DNA from: a virus
Reading direction: 5' to 3' (one strand)
DNA: 63,753 bases
Virus record (IMG/VR): IMGVR_UViG_3300032236_000438
Span: 1-63,753 of that record
Shown here: one piece after another, positions 2,744 through 27,907 of the stretch
Layout of the letters: the number at the start of each line of letters is the position of its first letter
How positions within the stretch are numbered: the first letter of the stretch is position 1
Notes under the pieces: model-generated
Databases searched by the model: none
What the model was told of the DNA's origin: nothing
What the model saw: the letters and a program-made list of their open reading frames with translations, nothing else
Translations under genes and position numbers: made by a program

Positions 2744-3115
2744 GTGGCAAACACACCAACAAGTCCGCTTGACGCAACAGGCCGTGCAGCGGAAACAGCA
2801 GCAAAGAAAAACGCAAAAGCAATTCAAGACCGCAAAGATGAGATTTCAATTGCGGCACAAGTTGAGGCAGAGAATCTGGAAAATAACGTCTTTGACCCAA
2901 AGCGCCCAGACACTCCACTCGTTCTAGATGAGATTGAAAACGTCGGAGTAACAACGGCAAATGACACAGTCATTATCCGTACGATTACAGATGTTGAAGA
3001 TATGACTTACGGAGTTGGAAATCACTACACCTTTAAGGCTGGAGTGAAATACCGAGTCCCATCACATCTTGCTAATTACCTAGAGCAACTCGGATACATT
3101 TGGCGTCCTAACTAA
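2744..3115 (+). CDS. Small head-region protein of unknown role
   Basis: 123 residues with a GTG start preceded by taggagaattatcacc. Residues 1-45 are Ala/Lys-rich and helical. The C-terminal half is a compact beta-rich domain (VGNHYTFKAGVKYRVPSHLA, then a short helix and GYIWRPN). Genes of this size and type commonly follow capsid genes in actinophages and may encode head decoration or head-completion proteins. I cannot assign a specific function. It sits alone between two hairpin terminators, so it is probably transcribed with the capsid gene by read-through. Confidence 0.75.
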   Translation: MANTPTSPLDATGRAAETAAKKNAKAIQDRKDEISIAAQVEAENLENNVFDPKRPDTPLVLDEIENVGVTTANDTVIIRTITDVEDMTYGVGNHYTFKAGVKYRVPSHLANYLEQLGYIWRPN

Positions 3116-3128
3116 GACGTCGCTAGTA

Positions 3129-3181
3129 GTCCAACCTCAACTGGTTCCCGCCCTCCTCCCAGTTGGGGTTGGACCTTTTTT
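3129..3181 (+). terminator. Strong Rho-independent terminator
   Basis: Left arm gtccaacctcaactgg (3129-3144) pairs with ccagttggggttggac (3159-3174): a 16-bp stem with one G-U wobble, a 14-nt loop, then C and six T residues (3176-3181). This is the clearest intrinsic terminator in the window and closes the head operon before the fibre genes. Confidence 0.92.
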
Positions 3182-3229
3182 ATCGGAGCATATTTGAGAT
3201 GATTGCACCACATAGTTTTCGGAGGTTCC

Positions 3230-4279: not shown

Positions 4280-4680
4280 CAACGTGCAATTGTCAAAGCA
4301 CGTGCTCATGTGGAACACAGGCAGTTACTGTTCAGGTAGCTAGCCCAACTGTTATCAACGTTGTTACCCCTGGTACTCAGTCAACTCAATCAACAGTTGT
4401 TGTAAAGCCTGGTCAAGGCGGTTCTCGTGGTCCACAGGGTCTGCAAGGAACGCAAGGTATTCAAGGATTACAAGGACTCACTCGTGAAGTTGCCTATCGC
4501 CATAGCCAAAGTACACCAAATGTCACATGGAGAATCACACATAACCTTAATTTTTACCCAAACGTCACTACAATGGACTCTACTGGTGCAATTTGCGAAG
4601 GCGAAATCGTGTATACAAATCCGAACTATTTGGAAATAACATTTTTAGCAGCGTTCAGCGGCGTTGCGTACTTGTCATAA
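4276..4680 (+). CDS. Short collagen-like tail-fibre/knob protein
   Basis: 134 residues starting at GTG inside the overlap ATGTGA with the preceding gene. Residues 4-12 are Cys-rich (CNCQSTCSCG). A beta-rich stretch follows, then about eight collagen-type Gly-X-Y triplets (GPQGLQGTQGIQGLQG). The last 65 residues form a small domain (WRITHNLNFYPNVTTMDSTG ... YLEITFLAAFSGVAYLS) that recurs at the tips of many phage fibres. A collagen stem plus globular tip suggests a trimeric fibre. The Cys-rich head may cross-link or bind metal. Confidence 0.7.
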   Translation: MTTCNCQSTCSCGTQAVTVQVASPTVINVVTPGTQSTQSTVVVKPGQGGSRGPQGLQGTQGIQGLQGLTREVAYRHSQSTPNVTWRITHNLNFYPNVTTMDSTGAICEGEIVYTNPNYLEITFLAAFSGVAYLS

Positions 4681-4686
4681 GGAGAC

Positions 4687-6742: not shown

Positions 6743-9700
6743 ATGAGCCGTAGGTTTTTAACACCGCTTAACGTACTGCATTTGGCGACTCCGCCTAGCA
6801 GTCCGTCTATTGGCGATGTCTATTTTAATACTGCGGATAAAATCCTCTATACATGGGACGGCACTCATTGGGTTAGTGCGGGAACACAGGGTGCTCAAGG
6901 AACTACAGGTCCACAGGGTCTACAAGGAATTCACGGAACACAGGGTGCTACAGGCACACAAGGTGCAGTAGGAACTCAAGGAGCAATAGGTTACACAGGC
7001 TCACAAGGAACCACAGGTTCTACTGGCTCACAGGGCGCTACTGGTTCCCAAGGTATCCAAGGAATTGTTGGACCACAAGGAAATGTTGGTTCTCAAGGAA
7101 CAACTGGTATACAGGGAATTCAAGGATATACAGGAGCACAGGGTGCTACTGGAAATACAGGAACGCAAGGCGCTACTGGTACACAGGGTTCAACAGGAAC
7201 AACAGGTTCTCAAGGAACGACTGGAAGTCAGGGTACGACTGGTGCTCAAGGTAATACTGGCTCCCAAGGAACTACAGGAACACAGGGTTCAACTGGTAGC
7301 CAAGGAACTCAGGGTACAGTAGGTTCACAAGGAGCAACTGGCACGCAAGGAACTATTGGTGATACTGGCTCCCAAGGAGTTCAGGGCTACACAGGAACTA
7401 AGGGCGATACAGGTTCTCAAGGAACACAAGGTTCAACAGGCACACAAGGAACCACTGGTTCACAAGGCCTACAAGGAACCACAGGCAGCCAAGGAACAAC
7501 GGGCAGTCAAGGTACGACTGGTAACACTGGTTCTCAAGGTGTTCAAGGATTTACTGGTGCTCAGGGTAATACTGGCTCTACGGGTTCCCAAGGAACTACA
7601 GGTAACCAGGGAGTTCAAGGATATAACGGTACTCAAGGAACTATTGGCTCTCAGGGTATCCAAGGAACCACAGGCTCTCAAGGTGTTCAGGGAATCCAAG
7701 GAACACAAGGAACAATTGGTAGCCAAGGAACTACGGGTAACCAAGGTACACAAGGAGTTCAAGGTGTACAGGGAACCACTGGCTCTCAAGGAGTTCAAGG
7801 TACCCAAGGCATTCAAGGTATCCAAGGAGCAGTCGGCCCTGTCTCCTCTCAGAACGCACACCAATCAGTAGAGGCTGTACAAACAACGCCTCTTGGTAAC
7901 GGCGCTACTTACTATGCTGGCTCTGCTGATGCTAGCAACGGTACTGGTGTTGGCGCATACATCATCGCCACATTTAATGGGACTCTTTCTATTGACGGCT
8001 ACACCACTCCAAACATGGCAGTTGGTGACCGTGTCCTTATTGCTGGACAAACAACTCAAGCGCAAAATGGTATCTACACCGTAACGCAAACAGGTAGCGT
8101 CTCTACAAAGTGGAAACTTACTCGTGCTACAGATGCTGATAACCATGTTGCTGCACAAGTTGAGGAAGGCGATTATGTCTTTGTAACCGATGGAACTGTA
8201 TATGGTAAGACCGCATGGCTTATGTATGCCAACGGCTCTAACTCAGATGGCTCTATCCGTATCGGTACTGACGCTATCCAATGGACACAGGCTAGTGGTG
8301 TAGGAGCACAGGGTGCTACTGGTGCTCAAGGTGCTGGTGGAACAGTTGCTTATTGGGGTTCTTTCTGGAGTACAGACACTCAAACAACTGCAAGTTCTTC
8401 TGCAACTACCCCAGTAACCTTTAACAATACAGACTCTAACTCTACTGGAATATCGGTAGTCTCTAGTTCAAAGATTACTTTTGCTCATACAGGTACGTAC
8501 AACATTCAATTTTCTGCTCAAGTTCATCAAGCATCTAATGGAAGTCCAACAGTTGATTTTTGGCTAAGAAAAAATAACGTTGATGTACCTGATTCTACTG
8601 GAACTGTAGCACTTTCAAACCAAATGCACTACGCACTTCCAGCGTGGAACTATGTCATGAACTTGACTGCTGGTGATTATGTAGAACTTATTTGGGCAGC
8701 AGATACAACTGCAGTGGAGTTAGTGACTAACGCAGCACAAACTTCTCCACATGTTGCTCCAGAAACTCCGTCTGTAATCCTTACTGCTACACAAGTTGCC
8801 TACGCAATTCAAGGTACACAAGGTCTTCAAGGCACTACAGGAACTCAAGGCACCACAGGTTCTCAAGGAACAACGGGTGCACAAGGCACAACTGGCTCAC
8901 AAGGCACCACTGGTAGTCAAGGTGTTACAGGTTCTCAAGGAACTACGGGAGCCCAGGGCACTCAAGGAACAATTGGTTCACAGGGAGTTCAAGGCACCAC
9001 TGGTTCCCAGGGAACAACTGGTACTCAAGGTTCAACTGGTTCTACTGGTAGTCAGGGAACTACAGGTAACACAGGGGCTCAAGGTGCAATCGGTTCTCAA
9101 GGTGCACAGGGTACAACTGGTAGTCAAGGTGCAATTGGTTCGCAGGGCGCTACTGGTACTCAAGGCACAACTGGAGCGCAAGGAACAACGGGTACACAAG
9201 GTACAACGGGTAGCCAAGGCACAACAGGAAGCCAAGGCACACAGGGCACACAAGGTTCTATTGGTTCAACTGGTGTTCAAGGATTTACTGGAAGTCAAGG
9301 AACTACAGGTTCTCAGGGAACCACAGGTACCCAAGGAGCAATAGGTAGCCAAGGTACTACTGGTTCTCAGGGAACAACTGGAAGTCAAGGAGCCACAGGT
9401 TCTCAAGGCACCACTGGTACTCAAGGTTCTACGGGGTCTCAAGGTACGACTGGTTCTCAAGGCACCACTGGTTCACAGGGTACGACAGGTACAACTGGTG
9501 CACAGGGAACTACCGGCACACAGGGAGCTACGGGTATTCAAGGTTCCACCGGAACTCAGGGAACTACTGGTTCGCAAGGTATTCAGGGTTCTACGGGAAC
9601 GCAAGGTACGACAGGTGCACAAGGTATTCAGGGTCTTCAAGGCGCATCAATTCAAGGCGCCCAAGGAGTATCTGGTGCAACATTTATTGTTGATTACCTG

Positions 9701-9817
9701 GATGGCGGTTCTTCTGCAATAAACCCAGATATAATCTATAACGCAGGAATTTCTTCTAGCAATAGTACGACATGGACTTACACCATTGATGCTGGCGCAT
9801 CAACCGTGAGTTTCTAA
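6743..9817 (+). CDS. Large collagen-like fibre with C1q-like domain
   Basis: 1024 residues. Residues 1-46 are a fibre-attachment module ending WDGTHWVSAG. Residues ~47-364 and ~688-973 are two nearly uninterrupted collagen Gly-X-Y tracts made mainly of G-T-Q, G-S-Q and G-T-T triplets with almost no proline. Between them lie a VGDRVLIAGQ...NGIYTV module (~372-520) and a C1q/TNF-like jelly-roll (~533-686: YWGSFWSTDTQTTASSS, then HTGTYNIQFSAQV). A short beta domain closes the protein. Collagen tracts imply a trimer; the layout resembles bacterial and animal collagen-C1q proteins. The Thr-rich triplets could carry glycans, which fits the glycan-type genes downstream. Confidence 0.9.
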   Translation: MSRRFLTPLNVLHLATPPSSPSIGDVYFNTADKILYTWDGTHWVSAGTQGAQGTTGPQGLQGIHGTQGATGTQGAVGTQGAIGYTGSQGTTGSTGSQGATGSQGIQGIVGPQGNVGSQGTTGIQGIQGYTGAQGATGNTGTQGATGTQGSTGTTGSQGTTGSQGTTGAQGNTGSQGTTGTQGSTGSQGTQGTVGSQGATGTQGTIGDTGSQGVQGYTGTKGDTGSQGTQGSTGTQGTTGSQGLQGTTGSQGTTGSQGTTGNTGSQGVQGFTGAQGNTGSTGSQGTTGNQGVQGYNGTQGTIGSQGIQGTTGSQGVQGIQGTQGTIGSQGTTGNQGTQGVQGVQGTTGSQGVQGTQGIQGIQGAVGPVSSQNAHQSVEAVQTTPLGNGATYYAGSADASNGTGVGAYIIATFNGTLSIDGYTTPNMAVGDRVLIAGQTTQAQNGIYTVTQTGSVSTKWKLTRATDADNHVAAQVEEGDYVFVTDGTVYGKTAWLMYANGSNSDGSIRIGTDAIQWTQASGVGAQGATGAQGAGGTVAYWGSFWSTDTQTTASSSATTPVTFNNTDSNSTGISVVSSSKITFAHTGTYNIQFSAQVHQASNGSPTVDFWLRKNNVDVPDSTGTVALSNQMHYALPAWNYVMNLTAGDYVELIWAADTTAVELVTNAAQTSPHVAPETPSVILTATQVAYAIQGTQGLQGTTGTQGTTGSQGTTGAQGTTGSQGTTGSQGVTGSQGTTGAQGTQGTIGSQGVQGTTGSQGTTGTQGSTGSTGSQGTTGNTGAQGAIGSQGAQGTTGSQGAIGSQGATGTQGTTGAQGTTGTQGTTGSQGTTGSQGTQGTQGSIGSTGVQGFTGSQGTTGSQGTTGTQGAIGSQGTTGSQGTTGSQGATGSQGTTGTQGSTGSQGTTGSQGTTGSQGTTGTTGAQGTTGTQGATGIQGSTGTQGTTGSQGIQGSTGTQGTTGAQGIQGLQGASIQGAQGVSGATFIVDYLDGGSSAINPDIIYNAGISSSNSTTWTYTIDAGASTVSF
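6883..7834 (+). repeat. Collagen-encoding 9-bp repeat tract 1
   Basis: Degenerate tandem repeat with a 9-bp period encoding Gly-X-Y triplets. Synonymous codons vary strongly between copies (ggaaca/ggtact/ggcacc), so the DNA repeats are imperfect although the protein repeat is regular. Such tracts are prone to length change by recombination or slippage and to assembly collapse. Confidence 0.95.
8809..9663 (+). repeat. Collagen-encoding 9-bp repeat tract 2
   Basis: Second Gly-X-Y-coding tract in the same gene, again with a 9-bp period and varied synonymous codons. It is enriched in the double triplets G-T-T-G-S-Q and G-T-T-G-T-Q. It ends at QGASIQGAQGVSG just before the C-terminal domain. Confidence 0.95.
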
Positions 9818-9836: not shown

Positions 9837-10496
9837 ATGACAACAAGAATGCAGCAACGACGAGACACCTCGTCTAACTGGACTTCCAATAACCCAACAC
9901 TTGCTGCTGGTGAAATTGGCGTTGAGACAGATACTAACCAATTTAAGATTGGTGATGGCTCTACTGCCTGGACAAGCTTGTCTTATGCTGGTGGTGGAGG
10001 TATCTCCTACGCCTCTACAGCTACTGCTGGTGGAACAACTACCCTTACAGTAGCAAGCAAGCTAACACAGAACTTTACTGGAACATCTGCACAGACTGTT
10101 CAACTTCCTGTTGTGAGCACATTAACCACTGGTTTTGCTTTCCAAATCCTCAACAACAGCACACAATCTTTGACTATTAACTCCTCTGGTGGAAACCTAG
10201 TCACCACATTGCAAACTGGCTTTAGCGGTTTGTTTACAGTGGTATCTACTTCAGGAACAACTGCAGCTTCTTGGGACTATCAAATCTCTGGTTTTGACTT
10301 TGTATCAGGAACTGGTGGAACTGTTCTCCTTGCAACAGGAGGAACTGCAACTAACCTTACTCTTGCGGGAACTCTTACAGCCAACTCTTCAGCAGGTACC
10401 TCTGGACAGTTCCTTTCTTCAACTGGAACAGGCACAGCTTGGGCAACAGTTACAACTGACCCAACACCTACCATCTTTATGCTGGGTGGTATGTAG
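9837..10496 (+). CDS. Tail fibre protein with Mtd-like N-terminal domain
   Basis: 219 residues. Residues 4-50 match the major-tropism-determinant N-terminal module (MQQRRDTSSNWTSNNPTLAA, GEIGVETDTNQFKIGDGSTAW), a small beta-prism that anchors many phage receptor-binding proteins. The rest is low-complexity Thr/Ser/Gly beta structure ending PTPTIFMLGGM. No C-type lectin domain or diversity-generating cassette follows, so this is a fibre segment rather than a full Mtd. RBS candidate gaaagaggtc upstream of ATG 9837. Confidence 0.8.
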   Translation: MTTRMQQRRDTSSNWTSNNPTLAAGEIGVETDTNQFKIGDGSTAWTSLSYAGGGGISYASTATAGGTTTLTVASKLTQNFTGTSAQTVQLPVVSTLTTGFAFQILNNSTQSLTINSSGGNLVTTLQTGFSGLFTVVSTSGTTAASWDYQISGFDFVSGTGGTVLLATGGTATNLTLAGTLTANSSAGTSGQFLSSTGTGTAWATVTTDPTPTIFMLGGM

Positions 10497-10509: not shown

Positions 10510-11511
10510 ATGAATCTGGTGCAACAAGCGGTACAACAGGGCGGAAAATTAACGCCTCTTATTATTCCAGCATCCGTAACAGGTGGAACTGGATTAATGA
10601 ATCCATCTATATTTATAGATGATGATGGTGACATCCTCTGTATCTTGCGCCATATTAATTACACCCTTTATCACTCTGAGAACGACCAACGCTTTCCCAG
10701 TATCTGGGGACCACTGTCTTACCTGCACCCAGAGAAAGACCAGAAGTTACGTACAGAGAATTACTTCTGTAGATTAGATAAAGACTTTAATATCATTAAC
10801 TATTGCAAGATAGAAATGCAAAACCTTCACGAGCCTATCTGGGAGTTTGTTGGCTTAGAAGATGCCCGTCTTGTTAAGTGGGAAGGTAAGTACTACGGCA
10901 CTGGTGTGCGTAGAGATACCACCACAACTGGTCAAGGTCGTATGGAGCTCTCTGAGCTAGAGGTTGATAAAGAAGCTTGGACTGCTAAAGAAGTTTCTCG
11001 CATTAGAATCCCAGCTCCACTGGATGAAAACTCATACTGTGAAAAAAACTGGATGCCTGTTCTTGACAAGCCGTATGTCTATATCAAGTGGACTTCACCG
11101 ACAGAGGTTGTACGCACAAAGCCTTATCGCCCAGAAGTATGCGAACAACTAGCCGTAGTAGAAGGCGTTACTCCACCTACAGACCAACGTGGTGGTTCTC
11201 AACTTCTTAAATGGGGCGAGATGTACATTGCAATTACGCATGAGGTTGTGCTTACAAAAAACTACATGGGACAAAAAGATGGCGTATACCGTCATCGTTT
11301 ATGTGTGTGGAATAAAGCTTTTAAGCTCATTGGCATCTCACCTAAAGAGTGGTCATTCCTAGATGCCAAGATTGAGTTTGTTGCTGGTGCTGCTGTGCAT
11401 GAGGGCAACTTACTTATCTCATTTGGGTTTCAAGATAATGCTGCAATGATTCTTCAGGTTCCAGGAGCAGTTGTTGACTCAATGATTTCGGAGGCGCTCT
11501 ATGGAAATTAA
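10510..11511 (+). CDS. GH130-like five-bladed beta-propeller protein
   Basis: The frame is open further upstream but overlaps the previous gene there; ATG 10510 just after that gene's stop gives 333 residues. The protein shows the blade pattern of GH130-type (mannosyl-phosphorylase/hydrolase related) propellers: NPSIFIDDDGDILCILRH, then FVGLEDARLVKWEGKYYGTG, KNWMPVLDKPYVYIKW, GGSQLLKWGEMYIAITHE, YRHRLCVWNKAFKL and IEFVAGAAVHEGNLLISFG. Family members bind or cleave beta-mannosides or accompany glycosyltransferases. It overlaps the TPR-methyltransferase gene by 11 bases, so the two are translationally coupled. I infer a role in modifying or recognising glycans at the fibre; catalytic competence cannot be judged here. 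Confidence 0.65.
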   Translation: MNLVQQAVQQGGKLTPLIIPASVTGGTGLMNPSIFIDDDGDILCILRHINYTLYHSENDQRFPSIWGPLSYLHPEKDQKLRTENYFCRLDKDFNIINYCKIEMQNLHEPIWEFVGLEDARLVKWEGKYYGTGVRRDTTTTGQGRMELSELEVDKEAWTAKEVSRIRIPAPLDENSYCEKNWMPVLDKPYVYIKWTSPTEVVRTKPYRPEVCEQLAVVEGVTPPTDQRGGSQLLKWGEMYIAITHEVVLTKNYMGQKDGVYRHRLCVWNKAFKLIGISPKEWSFLDAKIEFVAGAAVHEGNLLISFGFQDNAAMILQVPGAVVDSMISEALYGN

Positions 11512-12775
11512 AGACTTGATAGTTCAACTGTCCAATAATCCTTTTAGCCCTGAACTTAACTTAAAGATTGCTGACGAGTACGACCGTATTGGTCAAACCG
11601 CATCTGCTGTTTCCTTCTACTTACGCACTGCTGAGTATGGCTACTACACGCACTACGACCATGTATATGCATCCCTTTTAAAATCAGCACAGTGCTTTAG
11701 CCACCAGCAAAACCGTGAGCACACAGTACAGAACCTGTACTACAAAGCTATTGCTTACTTGCCTCAGCGCCCTGAAGCGTGGTTCTTATTCTCACGTTAC
11801 TTTGAGCAGAACAAGAAATGGCAAGAGTCTTATACCTATGCTGAAGTGGGCTTGTCTTTACCAGAAGTAAAACATAAGCCTCTTCCTATTTGGGTTGAGT
11901 ATCCTGGGCGCTATGGCTTGACCTTTCAAAAAGCTGTTGCTGCATGGTGGGTAGGGCGCCAAGATGAGTCAGTGTCTTTGTTTAGGGAAATGCTTAAAGA
12001 CCCAACAATTGGACACGTTCATCTTCAATCTATAAAGAATAACTTAAAGAACTTAGGACATTCTTTTGATGAAGTTGACCCACTAGAGCCTGTAATTACT
12101 AACTACCGAAAGTTCTTTAGCGATAACGCTGGGTTGATTGTTGAGGTAGGAACTCGTGATGGAGATGACGCTAATTACCTGTTTAACAAACTCAATGCAA
12201 GTAAAGTGATTTCTATTGATGCTAACCCAGTTGCTGCTTACCTAACCCGTAGCAGATATCCATGGATGACTGTGATTGAGACAGCCGCCTCTGATAAAGA
12301 AGGAACAATTACCTTCCATCAAGTTAATTCGCCCAATAAAGAAATAATGGGTACTTCTTCTATTTTCAGTAAAGACCAATCAATATCTCCATCCCCTCAA
12401 GAGTATGAAGGACTTATCCAAGAGATAACCGTTCCTACTACCCGTATGGATACCCTACTCAAAGATGAGGACTCAATAGATGTAGTCAAGATTGATACAG
12501 AAGGCTACACCTGGCAGGTTCTTCAGGGCTTTGGAGATAGGCTCAAAGACGTCAAGATATTTCATCTAGAAACAGAACAAGCCCCAGTCCATGAGGACCA
12601 TGTCACTACAGAAAAAATCACGGAGTTCATGGAGAAAAATGGCTTTGCTTTGGTAGATTCGTCCTACGAATGGGGCTGGCTTATCCAAGACCAAGTATGG
12701 GTAAATAAGGCTTTAGTAGTTAAAAACAAGGAGTGTTTTAACAATACAGAAGTCCTTCAGACAGGGATAATTTAG
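11501..12775 (+). CDS. TPR-FkbM-type methyltransferase fusion
   Basis: 424 residues. Residues 1-200 are helical repeats of TPR type (IADEYDRIGQTASAVSFYLR; RPEAWFLFSRYFEQNKKW). From about 205 comes a class I methyltransferase: SAM-binding VEVGTRDGDD with Gly at 217, then ISIDANPVAAYLTRSRY, TAASDKEGTITFH and the FkbM signature VVKIDTEGYTWQVLQG. FkbM enzymes O-methylate sugars or small molecules; TPR parts usually hold glycosylated or protein partners. Sitting between a GH130-like protein and fibre genes, it may methylate fibre-linked sugars. Alternatives are a cell-surface-modifying enzyme made during infection. Confidence 0.8.
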   Translation: MEIKDLIVQLSNNPFSPELNLKIADEYDRIGQTASAVSFYLRTAEYGYYTHYDHVYASLLKSAQCFSHQQNREHTVQNLYYKAIAYLPQRPEAWFLFSRYFEQNKKWQESYTYAEVGLSLPEVKHKPLPIWVEYPGRYGLTFQKAVAAWWVGRQDESVSLFREMLKDPTIGHVHLQSIKNNLKNLGHSFDEVDPLEPVITNYRKFFSDNAGLIVEVGTRDGDDANYLFNKLNASKVISIDANPVAAYLTRSRYPWMTVIETAASDKEGTITFHQVNSPNKEIMGTSSIFSKDQSISPSPQEYEGLIQEITVPTTRMDTLLKDEDSIDVVKIDTEGYTWQVLQGFGDRLKDVKIFHLETEQAPVHEDHVTTEKITEFMEKNGFALVDSSYEWGWLIQDQVWVNKALVVKNKECFNNTEVLQTGII

Positions 12776-14239: not shown

Positions 14240-15073
14240 ATGCCAAATATCAATAGACCTACACGGTCTGGTGTTAGTTCTACCACTAAGAAATCAGTGT
14301 CAATACCAGACGCTCCAATTATTGGTACAGCTGTTGCGTACTCTGATTTAACTGCTGGTGTTGCATTTACACCTGGCACTGGCGGTGTTCCAGACACGTA
14401 CACAGCTACATCTACTCCAGGAAGCTTTACAGCAACAGGTTCTTCATCTCCTTTAGTTGTTTCAGGATTAACTGAAGGAACTTCGTATACCTTCACAGTT
14501 ACCGCAAGTAATCAAGCAGGTACTAGTTCCGCATCTTCTGCTTCTAACTCTATTACTGCATACAATGCGGGTTCTTTTGATTCTATTGCTACAGCTACTT
14601 TGGGTGGTTCTGGGGCAGCAGCATTTTCTTCTATTCCACAAACGTATACTCATTTACAGATTCGTGCTACATGGCGTTCTGATTACGCCTCTGTTGCAGA
14701 TGGTTTTATCCTTAGATTTAATGCAGACTCTTCAAACCACACTATTCACTACCTACAAGGTGACGGGTCTTCTGCAACTGCGTCTTATGCAGTAAGCGGA
14801 AATGCTTTTCGGTTTACTGCTGCTCCTGGAGCAAATGCTGGTTCTAGCATTTTTGGGTCTGCTGTTATTGACATTCTTGATTACACCAATACAAACAAGT
14901 ATAAAGTCATCAATGCTATTGCTGGTTTTGATAATAATGGTTCGGGTCAAGTAATGTTTGGCTCTGGTATTTACAGCTCTAATACCAATGCTATTAGCAC
15001 TATTAACTTATACCCAAACAACTCTAATAACTTTGTTCAGTACACAAGCGTCGCACTGTATGGGATGAAATAA
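14240..15073 (+). CDS. FN3 plus long beta-domain fibre protein (unit 1, module L)
   Basis: 277 residues with RBS aaggag. Residues 23-108 are a fibronectin type III domain (PDAPIIGTAVAYSDL ... GLTEGTSYTFTVTAS). Residues 112-277 are a beta-sandwich domain that recurs nine times in this region; its landmarks are IPQTYTHLQIR, FNADSSNHTIHYLQGDGSS, VIDILDYTNTNKYK and the end VALYGMK. The closest relatives in the window are the end of the gene at 15603 and the gene at 18563, which also carry FN3 before the domain. Probably a surface-exposed fibre subunit. The next gene begins in its stop codon. Confidence 0.75.
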   Translation: MPNINRPTRSGVSSTTKKSVSIPDAPIIGTAVAYSDLTAGVAFTPGTGGVPDTYTATSTPGSFTATGSSSPLVVSGLTEGTSYTFTVTASNQAGTSSASSASNSITAYNAGSFDSIATATLGGSGAAAFSSIPQTYTHLQIRATWRSDYASVADGFILRFNADSSNHTIHYLQGDGSSATASYAVSGNAFRFTAAPGANAGSSIFGSAVIDILDYTNTNKYKVINAIAGFDNNGSGQVMFGSGIYSSNTNAISTINLYPNNSNNFVQYTSVALYGMK

Positions 15074-15603
15074 TGGCTGCAGGTACAACTTATTCTCTTA
15101 TTGGTAGTTACACATACACAGCAGATGGCCCGCAATACAATGCTCTTGCTTTCTCTAATATCCCGCAAACCTACACTGATTTGGTTCTTATAGTAAACTC
15201 TAAAGACCAAATTCCCGTTACTAGCAGCGTGTATCAACCATTAACATTCAATAATGATGGAGGAAATAATTATTCTGAAACTCAGATGGCTGTTTCTTCA
15301 GGTAGCTTTGCTTCAAGTAGGTGGAGTAACCAAAATATTTTGCAATTTATGCAGCAACCTGGAAACAATTCCCCTGCTGGATACTTTTCAATAAATGAAA
15401 TTCAAATTATGAACTATTCTAGTACAAACATATACAAGACTGTACTAGTAAGAAATAATCTTAACGGAACGACAAACAACCAAGTAAGAGTAATTGCTGG
15501 GTTATGGAAAGGTACTGCAGGAATTACTACTGTTACTGTAAATGGTACTTGGGGTTATAAAACTGGGTCGTCAATTTCGTTATATGGAATTAAGGCGGCA
15601 TAA
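15073..15603 (+). CDS. Short beta-domain fibre protein (unit 1, module S1)
   Basis: 176 residues consisting of one copy of the recurrent domain: IPQTYTDLVLIV, FNNDGGNNYSETQM, EIQIMNYSSTNIYKTVLV and the end ISLYGIKAA. It groups with the genes at 16924 and 19401 by the IMNYxNTxxxKT motif and the LYGIxxA end. Starts in the overlap TAATG with the gene before and ends in TAATG with the gene after. Function unknown; presumed fibre or adhesin subunit. Confidence 0.7.
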   Translation: MAAGTTYSLIGSYTYTADGPQYNALAFSNIPQTYTDLVLIVNSKDQIPVTSSVYQPLTFNNDGGNNYSETQMAVSSGSFASSRWSNQNILQFMQQPGNNSPAGYFSINEIQIMNYSSTNIYKTVLVRNNLNGTTNNQVRVIAGLWKGTAGITTVTVNGTWGYKTGSSISLYGIKAA

Positions 15604-16922
15604 TGGCTAATACATATAAAAAGATTCAGACCATAACTGTAGGTGCTGGTGGTTCTTCCACAATTAACTTTACAAGTATTCCTCAAGGTTACACAGACTT
15701 ACGTTTAGTTGTCTCTGCTCGTAGTGCTTACAGTAGTACAAAAACAGATGGATTATCAGTTGCTTTTAATGGTTCTACATCTGGGTTTATTACTACTTAC
15801 TTATACGGGTATGGAACTAACTATATTAGCAACAGTTCTTACACCAACTACTTTGGAGAAGTACCTTCATCAACAACTACTGCAAACAGCTTTAGTAATA
15901 CTACGGTTTACTTGTCTGGGTACACAAGCAATACATACAAAGCTTTTTCCTGTAATGCCGTTGCTGAAGCCGCAACAAGCACTGCACAAGACAGTACTTT
16001 AATGATTAGCTCTGGAAGTTGGTCAAATACTGCTGCTATTAATCAAATTACTTTGTCGCTATCTTCTGCTTCAAACTTTCTTCAGTACTCTGTTGCAACT
16101 CTTTATGGTATTTCTAATGCCAACGCTACAACGACCCCTAGTGTTCCTAACATTACATCGGTGTCAGACTTAGCTGGAGGCGTTGCAACGGTGAACATTG
16201 CTACGTCATCTCCTGCTGCTGGTCTTTACACAGTTACTGCTACACCAGGAAACATCACAGCTACAGGGTTAGCAAGCCCATCAGGTACGTCTAATGCAGT
16301 CTTACTTCCAGGTCTATCTCCAAATACAACATATGCATTTTCTGCAACAGCTACTAATTCTATGGGGACATCTGCAGCTAGCGCACCAACTGTAGGTTCT
16401 GCGTTAGTTCCTTTTAACGGGTTTGTTGCCTTGGCTACTGTAACTGTTGGAACTCCAACAGGAAGTCTTTACTTTACTTCTATTCCTCAAAATTACAGCC
16501 ATTTGCAACTGCGTATGTTTGGTAAAAATACTGGTACAAGCGGTTCATTTGATTTTAGTTGGATGATATTTAACTCAGACTCTGGTGCAAACTACACTTA
16601 TCACAGACTGTTTGGTGATGGCTCAACTGCTCAAGTAGGTTCTGGAACAGGCTCAACTGCTATTTATTACGGAGAATACCCAACTACCACAGGATATGCT
16701 AATATATTTGGTGCTGGGGTAATGGACATTTTAGATTATTCTAATACCTCTAAAAATAAAACTGTTCGCAATTTATTTGGGCACGATGAAAACGGTTCGG
16801 GAAGAGTTGGAATGTATTCAGGATTTTGGAATAACACCGCTGCTATTACTTCTATCCAATTAAATGGTAACTCTTATAATTTTCAAACAGGTATGACTGT
16901 TGTTCTTTACGGGGTAAAATAA
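15603..16922 (+). CDS. S2 domain fused to FN3 and long beta-domain (junction of units 1 and 2)
   Basis: 439 residues. Residues 1-175 are an S2-type domain (IPQGYTDLRLVVSARS; SFSNTTVYLSGYTSNTYKAF; ending VATLYGISNA). Residues ~183-270 are an FN3 domain (PSVPNITSVSDLAGGVATV ... LSPNTTYAFSATATNS). Residues ~274-439 are an L-type domain (IPQNYSHLQLRMF; VMDILDYSNTSKNK; ending VVLYGVK). It therefore fuses the last module of one three-gene unit to the first module of the next. A fusion in which one stop codon was lost between duplicated units is the simplest explanation. Confidence 0.75.
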   Translation: MANTYKKIQTITVGAGGSSTINFTSIPQGYTDLRLVVSARSAYSSTKTDGLSVAFNGSTSGFITTYLYGYGTNYISNSSYTNYFGEVPSSTTTANSFSNTTVYLSGYTSNTYKAFSCNAVAEAATSTAQDSTLMISSGSWSNTAAINQITLSLSSASNFLQYSVATLYGISNANATTTPSVPNITSVSDLAGGVATVNIATSSPAAGLYTVTATPGNITATGLASPSGTSNAVLLPGLSPNTTYAFSATATNSMGTSAASAPTVGSALVPFNGFVALATVTVGTPTGSLYFTSIPQNYSHLQLRMFGKNTGTSGSFDFSWMIFNSDSGANYTYHRLFGDGSTAQVGSGTGSTAIYYGEYPTTTGYANIFGAGVMDILDYSNTSKNKTVRNLFGHDENGSGRVGMYSGFWNNTAAITSIQLNGNSYNFQTGMTVVLYGVK

Positions 16923-16923
16923 A

Positions 16924-17430
16924 ATGGCCGTTCAATTTACTTATGTACCGATTTTTACGCAGACTTTAGGGTCGGCAACTTCAACTGTAACCTTCTCTTC
17001 TATCCCTAGCACCTATCAAGATTTAATATTAGAAATATCTCCGTTTACAACAGCGGCGGGTGGCATAGATATAAATATGACTTTTAACGGTGATTCGGGA
17101 ACGAATTATTCAAGAACTTATTTAACAGGAAATGGCACATCTGCTTCATCAAACAGAAACAATAGCACTTCTTATATTCGTTTAACCGTTTCGGGTTTTG
17201 CTAGCAATAACTCTGCACCCGCAACAACCATTGCGCACATTATGAGTTATGCAAATACAAACATTAACAAAACAACATTAAATCGTTCAAGTTCTGGTAC
17301 AAATGGAACAGATATGGTTGCTGGATTATGGCGAAGCACTGCCGCTATTAACTCAATAGCGTTAGCATCAAGCGGTGGGAACTTTGATGTTAATTCAACT
17401 TTTACTCTCTACGGATTGGCGGCTGCATAA
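16924..17430 (+). CDS. Short beta-domain fibre protein (unit 2, module S1)
   Basis: 168 residues, one copy of the recurrent domain: IPSTYQDLILEISPF, MTFNGDSGTNYSRTYLTGNG, HIMSYANTNINKTTLN, end FTLYGLAAA. Closest relatives are the genes at 15073 and 19401. The start junction AAATAAAATGG is the same as before the gene at 19401, which supports descent of both by duplication of a larger unit. No RBS is visible at this junction; translation probably re-initiates. Confidence 0.7.
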   Translation: MAVQFTYVPIFTQTLGSATSTVTFSSIPSTYQDLILEISPFTTAAGGIDINMTFNGDSGTNYSRTYLTGNGTSASSNRNNSTSYIRLTVSGFASNNSAPATTIAHIMSYANTNINKTTLNRSSSGTNGTDMVAGLWRSTAAINSIALASSGGNFDVNSTFTLYGLAAA

Positions 17431-17951
17431 TGGCTAACCCAACTATCATACCTATTCAATCCTACACGGTAGGGGCTACAAGTGTTTCATCAGTTACTTT
17501 TTCCAGTATCTTATTTGGATACACAGACTTATTAGTTAGAGTAAGTGCAAGAGCGACTAACGCATCTACCGTATGCAACATCCAGTGGACATTTAATGGG
17601 TCAACAACAGGGTATTCTGGATTAGAGCTTTATGGTTCTGGGTCTGCTTCAGGTACAGGAAATGGTGGAAGCACAACTTCCTATATTCAATTAGGCTACG
17701 CTACAGGAAACAACGCTACTGCAAGTACCTTTGGCAATACTGACGTCTATATACCTAACTATTCTGGTCAATCAAACAAGTCTATACAGGTTGATGGAAC
17801 AATGGAGACAGCAGCTACTGGTTCGTATGTAGATATGGGGGCAGGTCTTTGGTCAAATACTTCAGCTATTTACCAAATAACTATGACACCAACTAGCGGT
17901 TTATGGATGCCTAATTCTACATTTTACCTATACGGTATAAACAGACAATAA
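17430..17951 (+). CDS. Short beta-domain fibre protein (unit 2, module S2)
   Basis: 173 residues, one copy of the recurrent domain of the S2 kind: LLVRVSARATNAS, WTFNGSTTGYSGLELYGSG, TFGNTDVYIPNYSGQSNKS, GAGLWSNTSAIYQITM, end FYLYGINRQ. Groups with the N-terminal parts of the proteins encoded at 15603 and 19898 by the VSAR motif and the xFxNTxVYxxxYxxxxxK motif. Start overlaps the previous stop (TAATG). Confidence 0.7.
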   Translation: MANPTIIPIQSYTVGATSVSSVTFSSILFGYTDLLVRVSARATNASTVCNIQWTFNGSTTGYSGLELYGSGSASGTGNGGSTTSYIQLGYATGNNATASTFGNTDVYIPNYSGQSNKSIQVDGTMETAATGSYVDMGAGLWSNTSAIYQITMTPTSGLWMPNSTFYLYGINRQ

Positions 17952-17956
17952 CAAGA

Positions 17957-17962
17957 TATAAT
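17957..17962 (+). promoter_or_regulatory. Possible -10 promoter element (TATAAT)
   Basis: A perfect TATAAT lies in the 39-bp gap after the gene ending at 17951, followed by AAAAACCCC and an RBS (aaggag) for the gene at 17991. No good -35 element is present at 16-18 bp spacing (bases there read ggtata/gtataa), so it would need an activator or another sigma factor. Treat as tentative. Confidence 0.3.
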
Positions 17963-17990
17963 AAAAACCCCACCCAATCAAGGAGAAACA

Positions 17991-18227
17991 ATGTCATCTA
18001 CACCAATGGCAGTTGAAGTTAACTGCGAAACAGGCGAAGTAACAGAGCGCCCATTAACAGCAGAAGAGATTGCTGCACAACAGGCTGCTGCTGATGCTTT
18101 TGCTGCACAAAAAGCTGCAGAGGAAGAAGCTGCTGCTGCAACTGCTGCTCTTAAGGCATCAGCAAAGGCAAAGCTTGTAGCTGGTACACCTCTTACAGAA
18201 GAAGAAGCTGCAGTACTAACACTCTAA
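17991..18227 (+). CDS. Small Ala/Glu-rich coiled-coil protein
   Basis: 78 residues with a good RBS (aaggagaaaca). After a short start (AVEVNCETGEVTERPLTAEE) the protein is an Ala/Glu-rich helix, ending LVAGTPLTEEEAAVLTL. Small proteins of this style are found next to fibre genes in many aquatic phages and may be fibre chaperones or linkers. No function can be assigned. It separates fibre units 2 and 3. Confidence 0.65.
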   Translation: MSSTPMAVEVNCETGEVTERPLTAEEIAAQQAAADAFAAQKAAEEEAAAATAALKASAKAKLVAGTPLTEEEAAVLTL

Positions 18228-18236
18228 GGATAACCA

Positions 18237-18566
18237 ATGGCACATTTTGCTGAAGTAAACGAGGACGGTATCGTCACTCGTGTCCTTGTCGTGCACGATT
18301 CTCAAGAGCATCGTGGACAAGACTTCTTGGCAAATGATTTAGGCCTTGGCGGTACTTGGATTCAAACTAGTTACAACAAGCAATTCAGACATCACTTTGC
18401 GGGAGTGGGGTACAAGTATGACGCAGAACGTAATGCGTTTGTACCCCCTCAACCATATCCATCCTGGATACTTAGAGATGGTGATTCCACATGGCACGCC
18501 CCTAAGCCACAACCAGAGGGCGATGTTATCTGGGATGAAGAAGAACAGGAATGGGTGGCACGATGA
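18237..18566 (+). CDS. Conserved phage fibre-region protein of unknown function
   Basis: 109 residues. The pattern MAHFAEVNEDGIVTRVLVVH ... WIQTSYNKQFRHHFAGVGY, YDAERNAFVPPQPYPSW belongs to a family widespread in cyanophages and other aquatic myoviruses, usually beside fibre genes. Its biochemical role is not established; it is a virion-linked or assembly candidate. RBS aaggataacc upstream. Its stop overlaps the start of the next gene (ATGA). Confidence 0.8.
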   Translation: MAHFAEVNEDGIVTRVLVVHDSQEHRGQDFLANDLGLGGTWIQTSYNKQFRHHFAGVGYKYDAERNAFVPPQPYPSWILRDGDSTWHAPKPQPEGDVIWDEEEQEWVAR

Positions 18567-19399
18567 GCGTAAGACTAGCTAGTGAAGAGTCACTGAACTA
18601 CGGTAAGCGTGCAATACCTGATGTACCAAGCACACCTACTATTGGAACTGCAACAGATAGCTATAACGGTGGCGCCCTAGTTACATTCACACCAGGAGTA
18701 CTTGGTGGAGCAGCGACTACCTACACAGTCACATCCTCACCTGGAGGATTAACTGGCGTTGGCGCATCAAGTCCTGTAGAAATTGACGGCCTAACTCCAG
18801 GAACTTCTTATACTTTTACAGTAACAGCCTCTAACTCAACAGGCTCATCTGCAGCATCTTCTTCTAGTTCTAGTTTTATACCTGGTCCTAAACAGAACTT
18901 TGTCTCTATTGCAACGGGCGTTGTAGGTTCTGGTGGAGGCTCAATTACTTTCTCTAACATACCTCAAACGTACTCTCACTTACAGATTCGTTTTACAGGG
19001 CGCAGTCTGTATTCTGCTGGAACAGATATTATTATTTATAGATTTAACTCTGACTCCGGTAATAACTACACTCTTCACCGTTTCTATGGTGATGGTTCCT
19101 CACCTGGCGCCCAAGGAGCTATTCCCCAAACCTATGCCCTTGCAGGCGACATGCCAGCAGCAACATCTTCGTCTTCTCTAACGACAGGTGTAGCGGTTAT
19201 TGACTTACTTGATTACTCCAATACTAGCAAGTACAAAACTGCTCGTGCATTTGCAGGAAGAGACGAAAATGGTTTGGGGTACGTTTGGTTTAGTTCTAAT
19301 CTTTGGCTAAATACAGCAGCAATCACTTCAATCAATATTTTTGGTGGTAACGGAAATCTTACCCAGTATTCTCAAGCCGCACTGTATGGGATAAAATAA
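18563..19399 (+). CDS. FN3 plus long beta-domain fibre protein (unit 3, module L)
   Basis: ATG at 18563 (ATGA overlap with the previous gene) is preferred over an in-frame ATG 12 bases upstream; 278 residues. Residues 19-107 are an FN3 domain (LTPGTSYTFTVTASNSTG), residues 112-278 an L-type domain (IPQTYSHLQIRFTGRS; FNSDSGNNYTLHRFYGDGSS; VIDLLDYSNTSKYK; end AALYGIK). It is the counterpart of the gene at 14240 and of the C-terminal half of the gene at 15603. Presumed exposed fibre subunit. Confidence 0.75.
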   Translation: MSVRLASEESLNYGKRAIPDVPSTPTIGTATDSYNGGALVTFTPGVLGGAATTYTVTSSPGGLTGVGASSPVEIDGLTPGTSYTFTVTASNSTGSSAASSSSSSFIPGPKQNFVSIATGVVGSGGGSITFSNIPQTYSHLQIRFTGRSLYSAGTDIIIYRFNSDSGNNYTLHRFYGDGSSPGAQGAIPQTYALAGDMPAATSSSSLTTGVAVIDLLDYSNTSKYKTARAFAGRDENGLGYVWFSSNLWLNTAAITSINIFGGNGNLTQYSQAALYGIK

Positions 19400-19400
19400 A

Positions 19401-19898
19401 ATGGCATCAGGTCCAACATACACTCTTATCGCAACCGCCAATGGTACTGCTTCAAGCGGATTAATTACCTTTACATCTATACCTTCATCTTATACTGATT
19501 TAGTAGTGGTCTGCTTAAACACAAATATATCGGCAGCAAATCTTTACGTAACTTTTAATGGTGATGCTGGAGCACATTACTCAGAAACATATTTTAATGG
19601 CAATGGTTCAAGTGCTATCTCTGGAAGAGACACAGTTCCGTACTTAAATAGAGCAACAACTATTGGAACAACACCTGTTCAAACCATCATTCAAATTATG
19701 AATTATGCTAATACTTCTTTTTATAAAACTGCTATTGCAAAGTTTGCAAACAGTTCTGCTGAAATAAATACTACCGCTATTCTTTACCGAGGCTCAACTG
19801 GTTCTTCAACAGAAGCAATTACTTCCATTCAATTAAACGGTACAACAGCGTTTACTACATTAAGTACATTTAGTCTGTACGGAATTGCGAGTGCATAA
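19401..19898 (+). CDS. Short beta-domain fibre protein (unit 3, module S1)
   Basis: 165 residues, one copy of the recurrent domain: IPSSYTDLVVVCLNTN, VTFNGDAGAHYSETYFNGNG, IIQIMNYANTSFYKTAI, end FSLYGIASA. Closest relatives are the genes at 15073 and 16924. The start context AAATAAAATGG repeats that at 16924. Next gene starts in the stop codon. Confidence 0.7.
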   Translation: MASGPTYTLIATANGTASSGLITFTSIPSSYTDLVVVCLNTNISAANLYVTFNGDAGAHYSETYFNGNGSSAISGRDTVPYLNRATTIGTTPVQTIIQIMNYANTSFYKTAIAKFANSSAEINTTAILYRGSTGSSTEAITSIQLNGTTAFTTLSTFSLYGIASA

Positions 19899-21232
19899 TG
19901 GCAAGTACATATACGCTTATTGAACGTGTGACTGTAGGAGCAGCTGGTTCTTATGGGGTTACCTTTAACAGTATTCCACAAACATATACAGATTTAGTAC
20001 TAAAAGTAAGTGCAAGAAGCAGTCGTGTTTCTTTTACTGATGAAACATTAATGACTATCACCGGTGCTTCTACTGGTTACTACGGAACTCAATTGTCTGG
20101 AAATGGTAGTTCAACAAGCAGTTATGCATTATCCAATGGAACTACATACATCAATCTTCTAACGATTCCTGGAGCAAGTCAATCCTCAAATACTTTTGGA
20201 AGTTACGAAATTTATTTTGCAAACTATACTTCTGGCAATAATAAAACTTGGAGCGTAGACATTGTTTCAGAAGACAATGCGACTGCTGCTTATGATGCTT
20301 TTCTTGCTGGATATGTAGCAAACAGTGCAGCTATTACCTCAATTAATTTTTCTCCAAGAATTGCTAGCTTTGTACAGGGTTCTACTTTTAGTTTGTACGG
20401 AATATCTAAAGCTTCAACAATGTCTGGTCAAGGATTCCCATACGCTACTGGTGGAGATATTATCCAAACAGATGGTACATATTGGTATCACGCATTCCTA
20501 ACTAGTGGAACATTTACTCCACAAAAATCTTTAAGCTGCGATGTTTTGATTGTTGGTGGAGGAGGCGGGGCATCGTCTCACCAAGGCGGTGGAGGTGGAG
20601 CAGGAGGAGTTTTAGCTGTTGCATCACAGAGCTTAAACTCCAATTCTGGTTATGGAGTTATTGTTGGTGCGGGTGGTACAGGAGCTTCTGATGTTGCTAC
20701 TTCAGGTGGTAATTCACAATTTGGTTCGTACACTGCTCTAGGTGGTGGTGCTGGTGGATTAATTTACTTAAATGGTACTGCTGGAGGCTCAGGTGGTGGT
20801 GCTGGCGGAGGAAACGTAGCATCGTATACAGGAGGCGCTGGCACAGCAGGTCAAGGTAACGCAGGTGGAAACAGTGCAACTGTTTGGTATGCCGGTGGTG
20901 GTGGAGGCGCCAGTGCAAATGGCGGTAACGCAACATCGTCTGTTGCAGGTGCTGGTGGGGCAGGAACAAACTCGGTAACTGGTTGGGGTGCACTTTCTAC
21001 AGCATTGACTACTACAGGTCTTGGAGTTAGTGGGTACATTGCTGGTGGTGGTGGTGGTGGGTCTAACTCTGCTACAAGTGGAACGGGCGGTTCAGGCGGT
21101 GGTGGTGCAGGCTCAACTAGCACAGGTACTGCGGGTACGCCAAATACAGGTTCAGGAGCAGGTGGCGGTGGAAATGGTGGCTCTGGGTCTAATGGCGGTT
21201 CTGGACTAGTAATAGTCAGGTATGCAGTCTAA
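19898..21232 (+). CDS. S2 domain plus glycine-rich adhesin domain
   Basis: 444 residues. Residues 1-172 are an S2-type domain (IPQTYTDLVLKVSARSS; TFGSYEIYFANYTSGNNKTW; end FSLYGISKA). Residues ~185-444 are a separate glycine-rich domain that starts YWYHAFLTSGTFTPQKS, continues CDVLIVGGGGGASSHQG and ends GGSGLVIVRYAV. This is the Gly_rich_2 type fibre-tip pattern; comparable polyglycine-sandwich regions form the receptor-binding tips of T4-like gp38 adhesins. It is therefore the best candidate for the host-recognition tip. Low-complexity GGTGGT runs could mediate tip variation. Confidence 0.8.
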   Translation: MASTYTLIERVTVGAAGSYGVTFNSIPQTYTDLVLKVSARSSRVSFTDETLMTITGASTGYYGTQLSGNGSSTSSYALSNGTTYINLLTIPGASQSSNTFGSYEIYFANYTSGNNKTWSVDIVSEDNATAAYDAFLAGYVANSAAITSINFSPRIASFVQGSTFSLYGISKASTMSGQGFPYATGGDIIQTDGTYWYHAFLTSGTFTPQKSLSCDVLIVGGGGGASSHQGGGGGAGGVLAVASQSLNSNSGYGVIVGAGGTGASDVATSGGNSQFGSYTALGGGAGGLIYLNGTAGGSGGGAGGGNVASYTGGAGTAGQGNAGGNSATVWYAGGGGGASANGGNATSSVAGAGGAGTNSVTGWGALSTALTTTGLGVSGYIAGGGGGGSNSATSGTGGSGGGGAGSTSTGTAGTPNTGSGAGGGGNGGSGSNGGSGLVIVRYAV

Positions 21233-25732: not shown

Positions 25733-27262
25733 ATGGCATACGCCCGTCCTGGTGTGTACATCACCGAACGTCTGCTTCCACCAGTACTCCAAGGAGGAGT
25801 AACTGCGGATGCAGCTGGAGCCGTTGTTGCGTCATTCGCACAAGGCCCAGAAGCTGTAACTCGTGTTCAGTCTTGGTATGAGTTCACCTCATATTTTGGC
25901 GGATACAACGCTGCTTACCCAGCAACCTTTGAAGTTGGAGCTTTCTTCAACAACGGAGGTAAAGAGCTCTATGTAAAGCGCATCCTTCACTCAGATGCTT
26001 CACCATCTACTGTCAACCTTCTTACCTCTTCAAGCGCTACAGTAGCAACTGTAACCTCAAAGAACTCTGGAACAGACAGCAACAAGCTTTACATCAAGGC
26101 AACTGCAGGTCAAGTTTCAGGAACATACACCTTGTATCTCTACAAGGATTCTGGTGTTGCTGATAGCTTTGCATCGCCTTCTGCTCCAACAAACACCAAT
26201 GATGACCTTCTTCTTGAGCGTTATGAGAACATCGTATTTGATGACCCAACCTCAAGCAGCTTTGCAGAAACAGTAATCAACACTGTTTCTCCAAACATCA
26301 CAATCAGTGCTAGCGCATCAGGAACACTTGCAACCACTAACTTCTACCCACTAACAGGTGGAAGCAATGGAACTGCAGTTGTTGCTGCTGACTACACAGC
26401 GTACAAGGGTGGAAGCACATCAGTATTTGAAAGCTTCTCAGCATTGGACCGTCCACTCGTAATCTTCCTTCCAGATGCAAGCTCTCTCACAAGTTCAGCA
26501 GGCATCTACACAGCTGCTGCTTCATGGGCTTCAGCAAACAAGTCATTTGTTATTGTTCAACCTCCAAAGGGTTCAGCAGTCTCAGATGCAATCAGCTATG
26601 GTTCAAGCGTAGGAACAAGCAGCTACTCAGCTACTTACTACCCATGGCTCTACATTGCAGACCCAGTCGGTCGTAGCTCAGCATCACTTCGTTTGATTGG
26701 ACCTTCTGGCGCAGTTGCCGGATTGTTCATCAAGACAGACGGCAACCGTGGAGTGTTCAAGGCACCTGCAGGTATCGGTGTTGCGGTTACTGGCGTAGTT
26801 GCAGTTGAGAAGTCATTTACTTCTGCTGACCTTGACAACATGAACTCAAGCAACACCCCTGTTAACCCAATCCGTCAGATTCCTGGCGCTGGTCTTTCAG
26901 TCATGGGTGCTCGTACATTGCTTCAAGATGGAACAGCAAACAAGTATGTCAACATGCGTCGCTCTCTTAACTACCTTGAGAAGCAACTCAACAACCTTAC
27001 TCAGTTTGCTATCTTTGAAAACAATGATGAAAACTTGTGGGCACAAATCCGCACAACCATCAACGTGTTCTTGAACGATTACAAGAACAAGGGTGGTCTT
27101 CGTGGTGCTACTGCTTCACAGGCATACTTCATCAAGTGCGATGCAGAGAACAACAATGCAACAACAATCGCAAATGGCGAAGTACATATTCAAGTTGGCG
27201 TGGCTCTCCAGTATCCTGCAGAGTTCATTGTCATTGACCTAAGTCAAAAGACTCTGGTCTAA
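25733..27262 (+). CDS. Tail sheath protein
   Basis: 509 residues, RBS ttaggagaaaaa. It begins with the sheath hallmark YARPGVYITERLLPPV and continues FAQGPEAVTRVQSWYEFTSY, GGYNAAYPATFEVGAFFNNG and ELYVKRI. The C-terminal domain has VNPIRQIPGAGLSVMGARTL, YVNMRRSLNYLEKQLNNLTQ and FENNDENLWAQIRTTINVFL. These are the conserved parts of contractile sheaths; contraction drives the tube through the cell envelope. This gene, with the tube gene that follows, establishes myovirus morphology. Confidence 0.95.
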   Translation: MAYARPGVYITERLLPPVLQGGVTADAAGAVVASFAQGPEAVTRVQSWYEFTSYFGGYNAAYPATFEVGAFFNNGGKELYVKRILHSDASPSTVNLLTSSSATVATVTSKNSGTDSNKLYIKATAGQVSGTYTLYLYKDSGVADSFASPSAPTNTNDDLLLERYENIVFDDPTSSSFAETVINTVSPNITISASASGTLATTNFYPLTGGSNGTAVVAADYTAYKGGSTSVFESFSALDRPLVIFLPDASSLTSSAGIYTAAASWASANKSFVIVQPPKGSAVSDAISYGSSVGTSSYSATYYPWLYIADPVGRSSASLRLIGPSGAVAGLFIKTDGNRGVFKAPAGIGVAVTGVVAVEKSFTSADLDNMNSSNTPVNPIRQIPGAGLSVMGARTLLQDGTANKYVNMRRSLNYLEKQLNNLTQFAIFENNDENLWAQIRTTINVFLNDYKNKGGLRGATASQAYFIKCDAENNNATTIANGEVHIQVGVALQYPAEFIVIDLSQKTLV

Positions 27263-27280: not shown

Positions 27281-27907
27281 ATGGCAACAATTCAAAATAA
27301 CCGCTCAACGTTGGCTACAGACCCGATTCGTAACTTTCGGTTCCTTGTAACCTTCCAACCTCAAGATACAGGTAACACTGCTCTTCCTAAGACAACAACC
27401 TTTGGGTTCACATCTGTCTCAGGTCTAGCGGTTACAACTGACTCTATCCCTTACCGTGAAGGTGGATACAACACCACTGTCCACCAGATTCCTGGACAGA
27501 CATCCTTCACACCTCTCACACTACAGCGTGGTGTGGTTCTTGGTTCAGACCAGAACTGGAAGTGGATGAAGCAGTTGTTCCAGACTGTACAGCAGACTGG
27601 TGGACTTGCAACAGGACGCAACTTCCGTTGCGACCTTGAGATTGCAGTTCTCAATCACCCAGTTCCATCATCAGGAGCTGACGTAGTTGCTGGTGCAGCT
27701 ACAGCTGCAGCTGATGAAGTAGCAATGCGTTTTAAGGTTTACAACGCATGGCCTACAACAGTTGCGTACTCTGACCTTAACGCTGGAGATAACGCTCTCT
27801 ACGTTGAGCAGATGACTCTTGTCCACGAAGGTTTTGACCTTAACTGGGCAACTATTACCTCAGCAAATGGCGCTACAACCGTAAACTCAGCTGCAACATT
27901 TCAGTAA
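27281..27907 (+). CDS. Tail tube protein
   Basis: 208 residues, RBS gaaggagataacta. T4 gp19-like pattern: DPIRNFRFLVTFQ near the start, FTSVSGLAVTTDSIPYREGG, then TPLTLQRGVVLGSDQNWKWM and the end ALYVEQMTLVHEGFDLNW. The tube is the rigid inner cylinder inside the sheath. Order sheath-tube is conserved in contractile systems. Confidence 0.93.
   Translation: MATIQNNRSTLATDPIRNFRFLVTFQPQDTGNTALPKTTTFGFTSVSGLAVTTDSIPYREGGYNTTVHQIPGQTSFTPLTLQRGVVLGSDQNWKWMKQLFQTVQQTGGLATGRNFRCDLEIAVLNHPVPSSGADVVAGAATAAADEVAMRFKVYNAWPTTVAYSDLNAGDNALYVEQMTLVHEGFDLNWATITSANGATTVNSAATFQ

Follow-up and report, generated by a model that had tools for sequence, protein, structure and literature searches.

The window, that is the whole stretch of DNA analysed here, is a linear 63,753-bp IMG/VR virus record from a contractile-tailed phage, whose structural genes can be placed as follows:

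1527-2660: major head protein
25733-27262: tail sheath
27281-27907: tail tube
34410-35960: baseplate wedge

Within its structural region, eight genes (14240-21232) carry nine copies of one domain, arranged as three units. These genes, and the two small ORFs found between units 2 and 3, are:

14240..15073, + strand: g1, N-terminal anchor, FN3 and L1 (14573-15070); the anchored chain of unit 1
15073..15603, + strand: g2, S1 subunit of unit 1, beginning directly at the domain; its start overlaps the g1 stop (TAATG)
15603..16922, + strand: g3, S2 of unit 1 (15612-16115), FN3-like linker (~16122-16418) and L2 (16419-16919)
16924..17430, + strand: g4, S1 subunit of unit 2
17430..17951, + strand: g5, S2 subunit of unit 2
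17991..18227, + strand: small Glu/Ala-rich ORF without family match
18237..18566, + strand: 109-aa ORF matching phrog_7759 (function unknown; E 6e-34)
18551..19399, + strand: g7, anchor, FN3 and L3 (18896-19396); the anchored chain of unit 3
19401..19898, + strand: g8, S1 subunit of unit 3
19898..21232, + strand: g9, S2 of unit 3 (19907-20407) with a C-terminal glycine-rich tip, PF21722 (~20500-21229)

Upstream of the cassette region lie a 1024-aa collagen-repeat fibre protein (6743-9817; PF01391, E 4.5e-91), in which residues around 370-660 form a non-collagen insert, and a protein (9837-10496) that starts with Mtd_N (PF18454, E 3e-15), the family found at the N-terminus of the major tropism determinant of the Bordetella phage. 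An FkbM-type methyltransferase domain among the fibre genes (11501-12775; PF05050, E 1.6e-17) might modify virion glycans. For the tail sheath, the matches listed that cover most of the query come mainly from Streptomyces phages (33-43% identity), a weak hint that the host may be actinobacterial. A promoter scan gave fewer hits than the shuffled expectation, and a terminator scan returned 12 candidate sites where shuffled sequence gave 7.5 +/- 2.3. Comparison of Shine-Dalgarno sequences of gene 1 with those of genes 2 and 3 showed a weak, uninformative asymmetry.

The domain is a beta-sandwich of about 168 aa. A profile search recovered all nine copies (E 3.6e-35 to 1.4e-52), and together with all-against-all BLASTP it bears out what an earlier note on this DNA had read from the letters, namely that the copies fall into three subtypes repeated three times in the fixed order L-S1-S2. 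The best BLASTP match of every copy is of its own subtype, with identities of 42-49% between L copies (E 2e-35 to 1e-46), 32-38% between S1 copies (E 4e-23 to 2e-30) and 38-40% between S2 copies (E 5e-29 to 1e-34). The motifs proposed for each subtype stood up in part. DxLDY(S/T)NT(S/N)K is present in all three L copies and VSAR in all three S2 copies; the second S2 motif, (S/T)FxN, is absent from S2_3 (TFGS), the S1 motif (I/M)xxYxNTxxxKT is a loose one (S1_1 reads SST, not xNT), and the C-terminal LYG(I/L/V/M) is common to all nine copies. The junction AAATAAAATGG does recur between L and S1, at L2/S1_2 and L3/S1_3, and TAATGGC, in which stop and start overlap, is the sequence of all S1/S2 junctions of the window. 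The proposed gene fusion of unit 1 to unit 2 is a single ORF (15603-16922) encoding S2_1-FN3-L2. Unit 3 follows the two small genes and has its own anchored L, and its S2 chain, g9, bears the glycine-rich tip that had been described (PF21722, E 4e-20, 73.2 bits against a cut-off of 24.3). The FN3 domains F1 (28.1 bits) and F3 (31.6 bits) score above the PF00041 gathering cut-off of 25, and the FN3-like F2 in the fusion gene g3 falls below it (22.8 bits). In a Pfam search of the eight proteins the domain itself was covered by no family, and a PHROGs search of the cassette proteins gave only weak or flanking-domain matches.

To assess the distribution of the cassette, IMG/VR was searched with alignments that took in either every copy or only S1, S2 or divergent L, plus read-through queries, and the loci were rescanned in six frames. 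These scans used queries from the family itself and the best 80 per scan, and very divergent single-copy relatives are under-sampled. They yielded at least 292 unique L-S1-S2 units. Among non-redundant clusters away from contig ends, the number of strong copies was three in 151, six in 21 and nine in five, that is, a multiple of three in 177 of 180. The remaining clusters (L370, L393 and L397) comprise two with two copies and one with five, and in each the missing copy is an S2 that is sub-threshold or split or broken. The subtypes follow one another as L-S1-S2 on the same strand in 285 of 290 units, the other five having three copies each with ambiguous subtype calls. When 50 virus records of at least 31 kb were searched whole, beyond the fetched flanks, 46 held 3, 6 or 9 copies, and the other four (G412, G428, G450 and G454) each have a unit at the record end; one 136-kb record contains 12 copies. 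In G454 (L340) an HNH-endonuclease-like frame (8640-9185) follows S1 in the place expected for S2, and the record ends there. L368 has a normal L-S1-S2 unit and, downstream of it (3082-6411), three weaker copies that stand alone, each in a gene of its own. None of 398 and none of 296 bacterial genomes matched in searches run with no positive control, and a scan of bacterial genome contigs for prophages returned FN3-only loci with no match to the domain in them. The search of cultured phages yielded relatives in two Streptomyces phages, all weak and with a single copy, and otherwise only the ct2KA10 records, which are uncultured.

The three genes of a unit overlap or abut, and differ in what surrounds the domain. 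The first gene carries an N-terminal extension with a median of 20 aa (23 aa when counted to the distal ATG). Peptides of the MSPILGIYASQISGHL type are one example, and the window phage has FN3 here. At least 85% of first genes have an anchor of 10 aa or more, a minimum because first genes without an upstream ATG were scored 0. Genes 2 and 3, encoding S1 and S2, have a median of 3 aa before the domain. At L072, L448 and L456 the subtype call of the anchored first gene is different or ambiguous, and the units still consist of one anchored and two stalkless chains. At the other end, a C-terminal extension was found in none of 252 L chains. Glycine-rich tips are absent from 241 of 291 units and sit on S2 only in 24 and on both S1 and S2 in 26, never on S1 alone or on L (Fisher p 1e-23, only a guide because the units are related). 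Both tips of the L034 unit exceed the PF21722 cut-off of 24.3 (68.3 bits for S1 and 58.3 for S2). In place of a glycine-rich tip, one gene (L148, 6602-8254) has S2 followed by an FN3-like domain (PF00041, sub-cut-off) and a domain of ~290 aa. In 104 of 199 units the S1 stop and S2 start share one base, and a fusion of S2, FN3-like domain and L as in g3 is also present in L143/L145.

The domain also exists as a single copy. Lone distant copies at L074, L127, L141, L375 and one at L368 follow N-terminal parts of 57-248 aa, some of them with collagen-like or lambda-Stf-like repeats. In the cultured Streptomyces phages, Intolerant gp29 and Crosby gp30 have one copy after an N-terminal part of ~180 aa, and profile comparison identifies this type as the same domain (E 3e-14). 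Fold matches in BFVD likewise place it in viral proteins whose annotation names collagen or lambda-Stf repeats. These stalked relatives and fold matches fit a trimer head fold, and we infer that the domain is one, homotrimeric in its single-gene form. Lone copies at L388 (12-aa N-terminal extension) and at L368 (positions 4142, with no extension, and 5947, with 24 aa) lack a long stalk and count against this reading.

To look at the fold, we predicted the structure of S2_2 (g5) alone with AlphaFold2, which gave a 12-strand all-beta domain (pLDDT 94.0, pTM 0.89), a fold predicted with high confidence. In the PDB its best matches are generic, with a TM to query of no more than 0.44, and include galectin-type sandwiches, while viral predicted structures in BFVD match with TM up to 0.94; a PDB sequence search with a profile of 139 S2 sequences found no match. 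For the three subunits together we made use of seven units in which L, S1 and S2 are in one frame with stops and short spacers between them. Reading the stops as glycine, a device of the analysis that claims no read-through, gave an alignment of 53 rows, 46 of L-S1 only and seven covering S2, and a single-chain AlphaFold2 model with pLDDT 81.4 and pTM 0.73. By our own estimate three independently placed domains would score about 0.3, and three-way packing of L, S1 and S2 is thus predicted with moderate confidence, judged by pTM alone in a chain with short read-through linkers; the packing could form a closed ring. Foldseek of this three-domain model returned only meaningless multi-domain matches, which is why the single S2 was folded and searched instead. 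Inter-subunit couplings (288 effective sequences) have top-10 means of 0.103-0.110 against 0.070 +/- 0.004 in shuffled pairings, an excess of roughly 9-11 sd for all three subunit pairs that reflects contact or shared history, two sources that coupling analysis does not distinguish. The coupling maps carry no signal for ring chirality, matched and transposed maps correlating equally (0.03-0.05).

In a maximum-likelihood tree of 91 rows, L forms one clade (96/97) and S2 another (86/91), and the S1 copies are kept from forming a third only by lone copies on long branches that fall among them. The grouping by subtype anticipated in the earlier note therefore holds, while the matching branching order among units does not: no two window copies of the same subtype pair with support, and they group with copies of other phages instead. 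Across units, the pairwise identities of each subunit correlate with those of the other two (r 0.32-0.41; sd under permutation 0.05). A stricter comparison exchanges subunits between units of one genome, since genome and host are then held constant. Shared history was greater for matched than for swapped subunits in 33 of 44 cases for L-S1 (sign p 0.0013), 32 of 44 for S1-S2 (sign p 0.0037) and 36 of 44 for the non-adjacent L-S2 (sign p 2.5e-5). The three subunits of a unit are thus shown to have a common history, also when set against the other units in their genome.

The identical module order of the three units had suggested whole-unit duplication followed by divergence in the lineage of the window phage. 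The identities speak against it. Over 32 multi-unit genomes, units of the same genome have median identities of 42/41/42% for L/S1/S2 with maxima of 50/51/52%, so that no within-genome pair exceeds 52%; units of different phages have medians of about 43-45% (44/43/43% for random units). The window units, 42-48/31-41/37-38% identical to one another, resemble each other no more than units of unrelated phages do; each has closer relatives in other phages, and its copies cluster with other phages in the tree. The three are thus unrelated cassettes lying side by side rather than recent duplicates. A recent triplication in the window is ruled out by the identities and the tree, and we give it almost no credence; that verdict is on a recent event, and the units may have been gained by transfer or have arisen by a duplication older than the sampled diversity. 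The region looks like an accumulation of unrelated copies of a cassette that is itself ancient and conserved.

Copies in threes, a fixed order, a single anchor per unit, tips confined to certain chains and coherent units are all observed in these genomes. Together with the 1:1:1 packing model, they make a hetero-oligomer of three subunit types, which the earlier note had raised, the best supported reading. We consider that L, S1 and S2 are probably ancient paralogous subunits of an obligate 1:1:1 heterotrimeric receptor-binding head, and that the first two heads of the window would be chained. In this scheme the three chains would assemble into one pseudo-threefold head, for which position, fold and modularity suggest receptor binding. 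L would hold the head on the virion by the sole N-terminal anchor, a short conserved peptide often accompanied by FN3, and the stalkless S1 and S2 would reach the virion only through L. The optional glycine-rich C-terminal domains of S2, or of S1 and S2, would form a distal tip, and the overlapping or abutting stop/start junctions would couple synthesis at near-equimolar levels. If the units are heterotrimers, the S2_1-FN3-like-L2 fusion in g3 ties head 1 covalently to head 2 and may chain them in series. Head 3 has an anchor and a glycine-rich tip of its own and would be separate from both.

The tips of phage fibres and spikes are generally regarded as homotrimers. Three homotrimers stacked on one fibre axis, with an anchored L trimer followed by an S1 and then an S2 trimer, would also account for the fixed order, the single anchor and the glycine-rich tips on distal members. 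However, each chain of a homotrimeric fibre head would be expected to have its own stalk or anchor, and S1 and S2, which begin 3 aa before the domain, have neither a stalk nor an N-terminal connector. Moreover, such a stack gives no contact between L and S2, whose shared history (36/44) is at least as strong as that of the adjacent pairs, and the single-chain 1:1:1 model packs all three. We regard the stack as unlikely. It must be said that shared history within units can stem from co-transfer without contact. In a further alternative, three independent adhesins stay together only as a transferable module and form no joint complex. Receptor-binding genes are often mosaic, and the sequences are very diverse (median between-unit identity about 43%), as this would lead one to expect. 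But the number of independent adhesins should vary, whereas multiples of three were found in 177 of 180 clusters and the third copy could be traced in the others too, and neither S1 nor S2 carries an anchor; this alternative we judge very improbable.

The heterotrimer, if true, would change how these genes are annotated and modelled, as monomer or homotrimer predictions would be wrong, and one head could present three different surfaces. Copies in threes provide a simple genomic signature for it. Such cassettes may well represent a widespread and unrecognised class of tailed-phage receptor-binding proteins, an obligate heterotrimer with one anchored and two displayed chains and with tips on S2 or S1 and S2, of which a phage can have several unrelated heads, some chained by S2-FN3-L.

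Among known systems, the lone fibre heads (Intolerant gp29, Crosby gp30, L127, L141, L368) share the domain of the cassette and differ in being single-copy, mostly with their own N-terminal stalk, and presumably homotrimeric. PF21722 (Gly_rich_2), the C-terminal tip of g9 and of other S1 and S2 chains, is an optional extension in the cassette. In C1q-type A:B:C heads, three paralogous beta-sandwich chains form one pseudo-threefold head. The cassette has only this principle of a three-chain head in common with C1q and no collagen stalk on each chain; C1q/TNF structures are not among the best 50 fold matches listed (TM to query up to 0.44), nor was there a PDB sequence match. A heterotrimeric receptor-binding head in tailed phages was not found in the literature searched, mostly open-access with few preprints; the heterotrimer of phage A-1(L) is a baseplate wedge.

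One close precedent in principle is virophage DSLV2, whose tripartite tail proteins (QIG59353-55) form a 1:1:1 heterotrimer according to co-purification, native PAGE, negative-stain EM and AlphaFold3 (J Virol 2025, PMC12724248). As in DSLV2, the cassette consists of three consecutive paralogous genes in one orientation (285/290 units) whose proteins group by gene position and not by virus, L and S2 each lying on one side of a branch and S1 being broken only by lone copies. In contrast, the DSLV2 proteins resemble the T4 gp37 tip, have the collar domain PF07484 and are encoded beside the capsid genes (PMC12724248), whereas the cassette lies among the structural genes of a tailed phage, PF07484 is absent from its eight proteins and from the whole window, and gp37 is not among the best 50 fold matches listed for S2_2. 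The 1:1:1 complex of DSLV2 was shown biochemically, and that proposed for the cassette comes from a single-chain prediction. If the latter is true, the two cases together would point to more than one origin of heterotrimeric adhesion heads, in unrelated folds.
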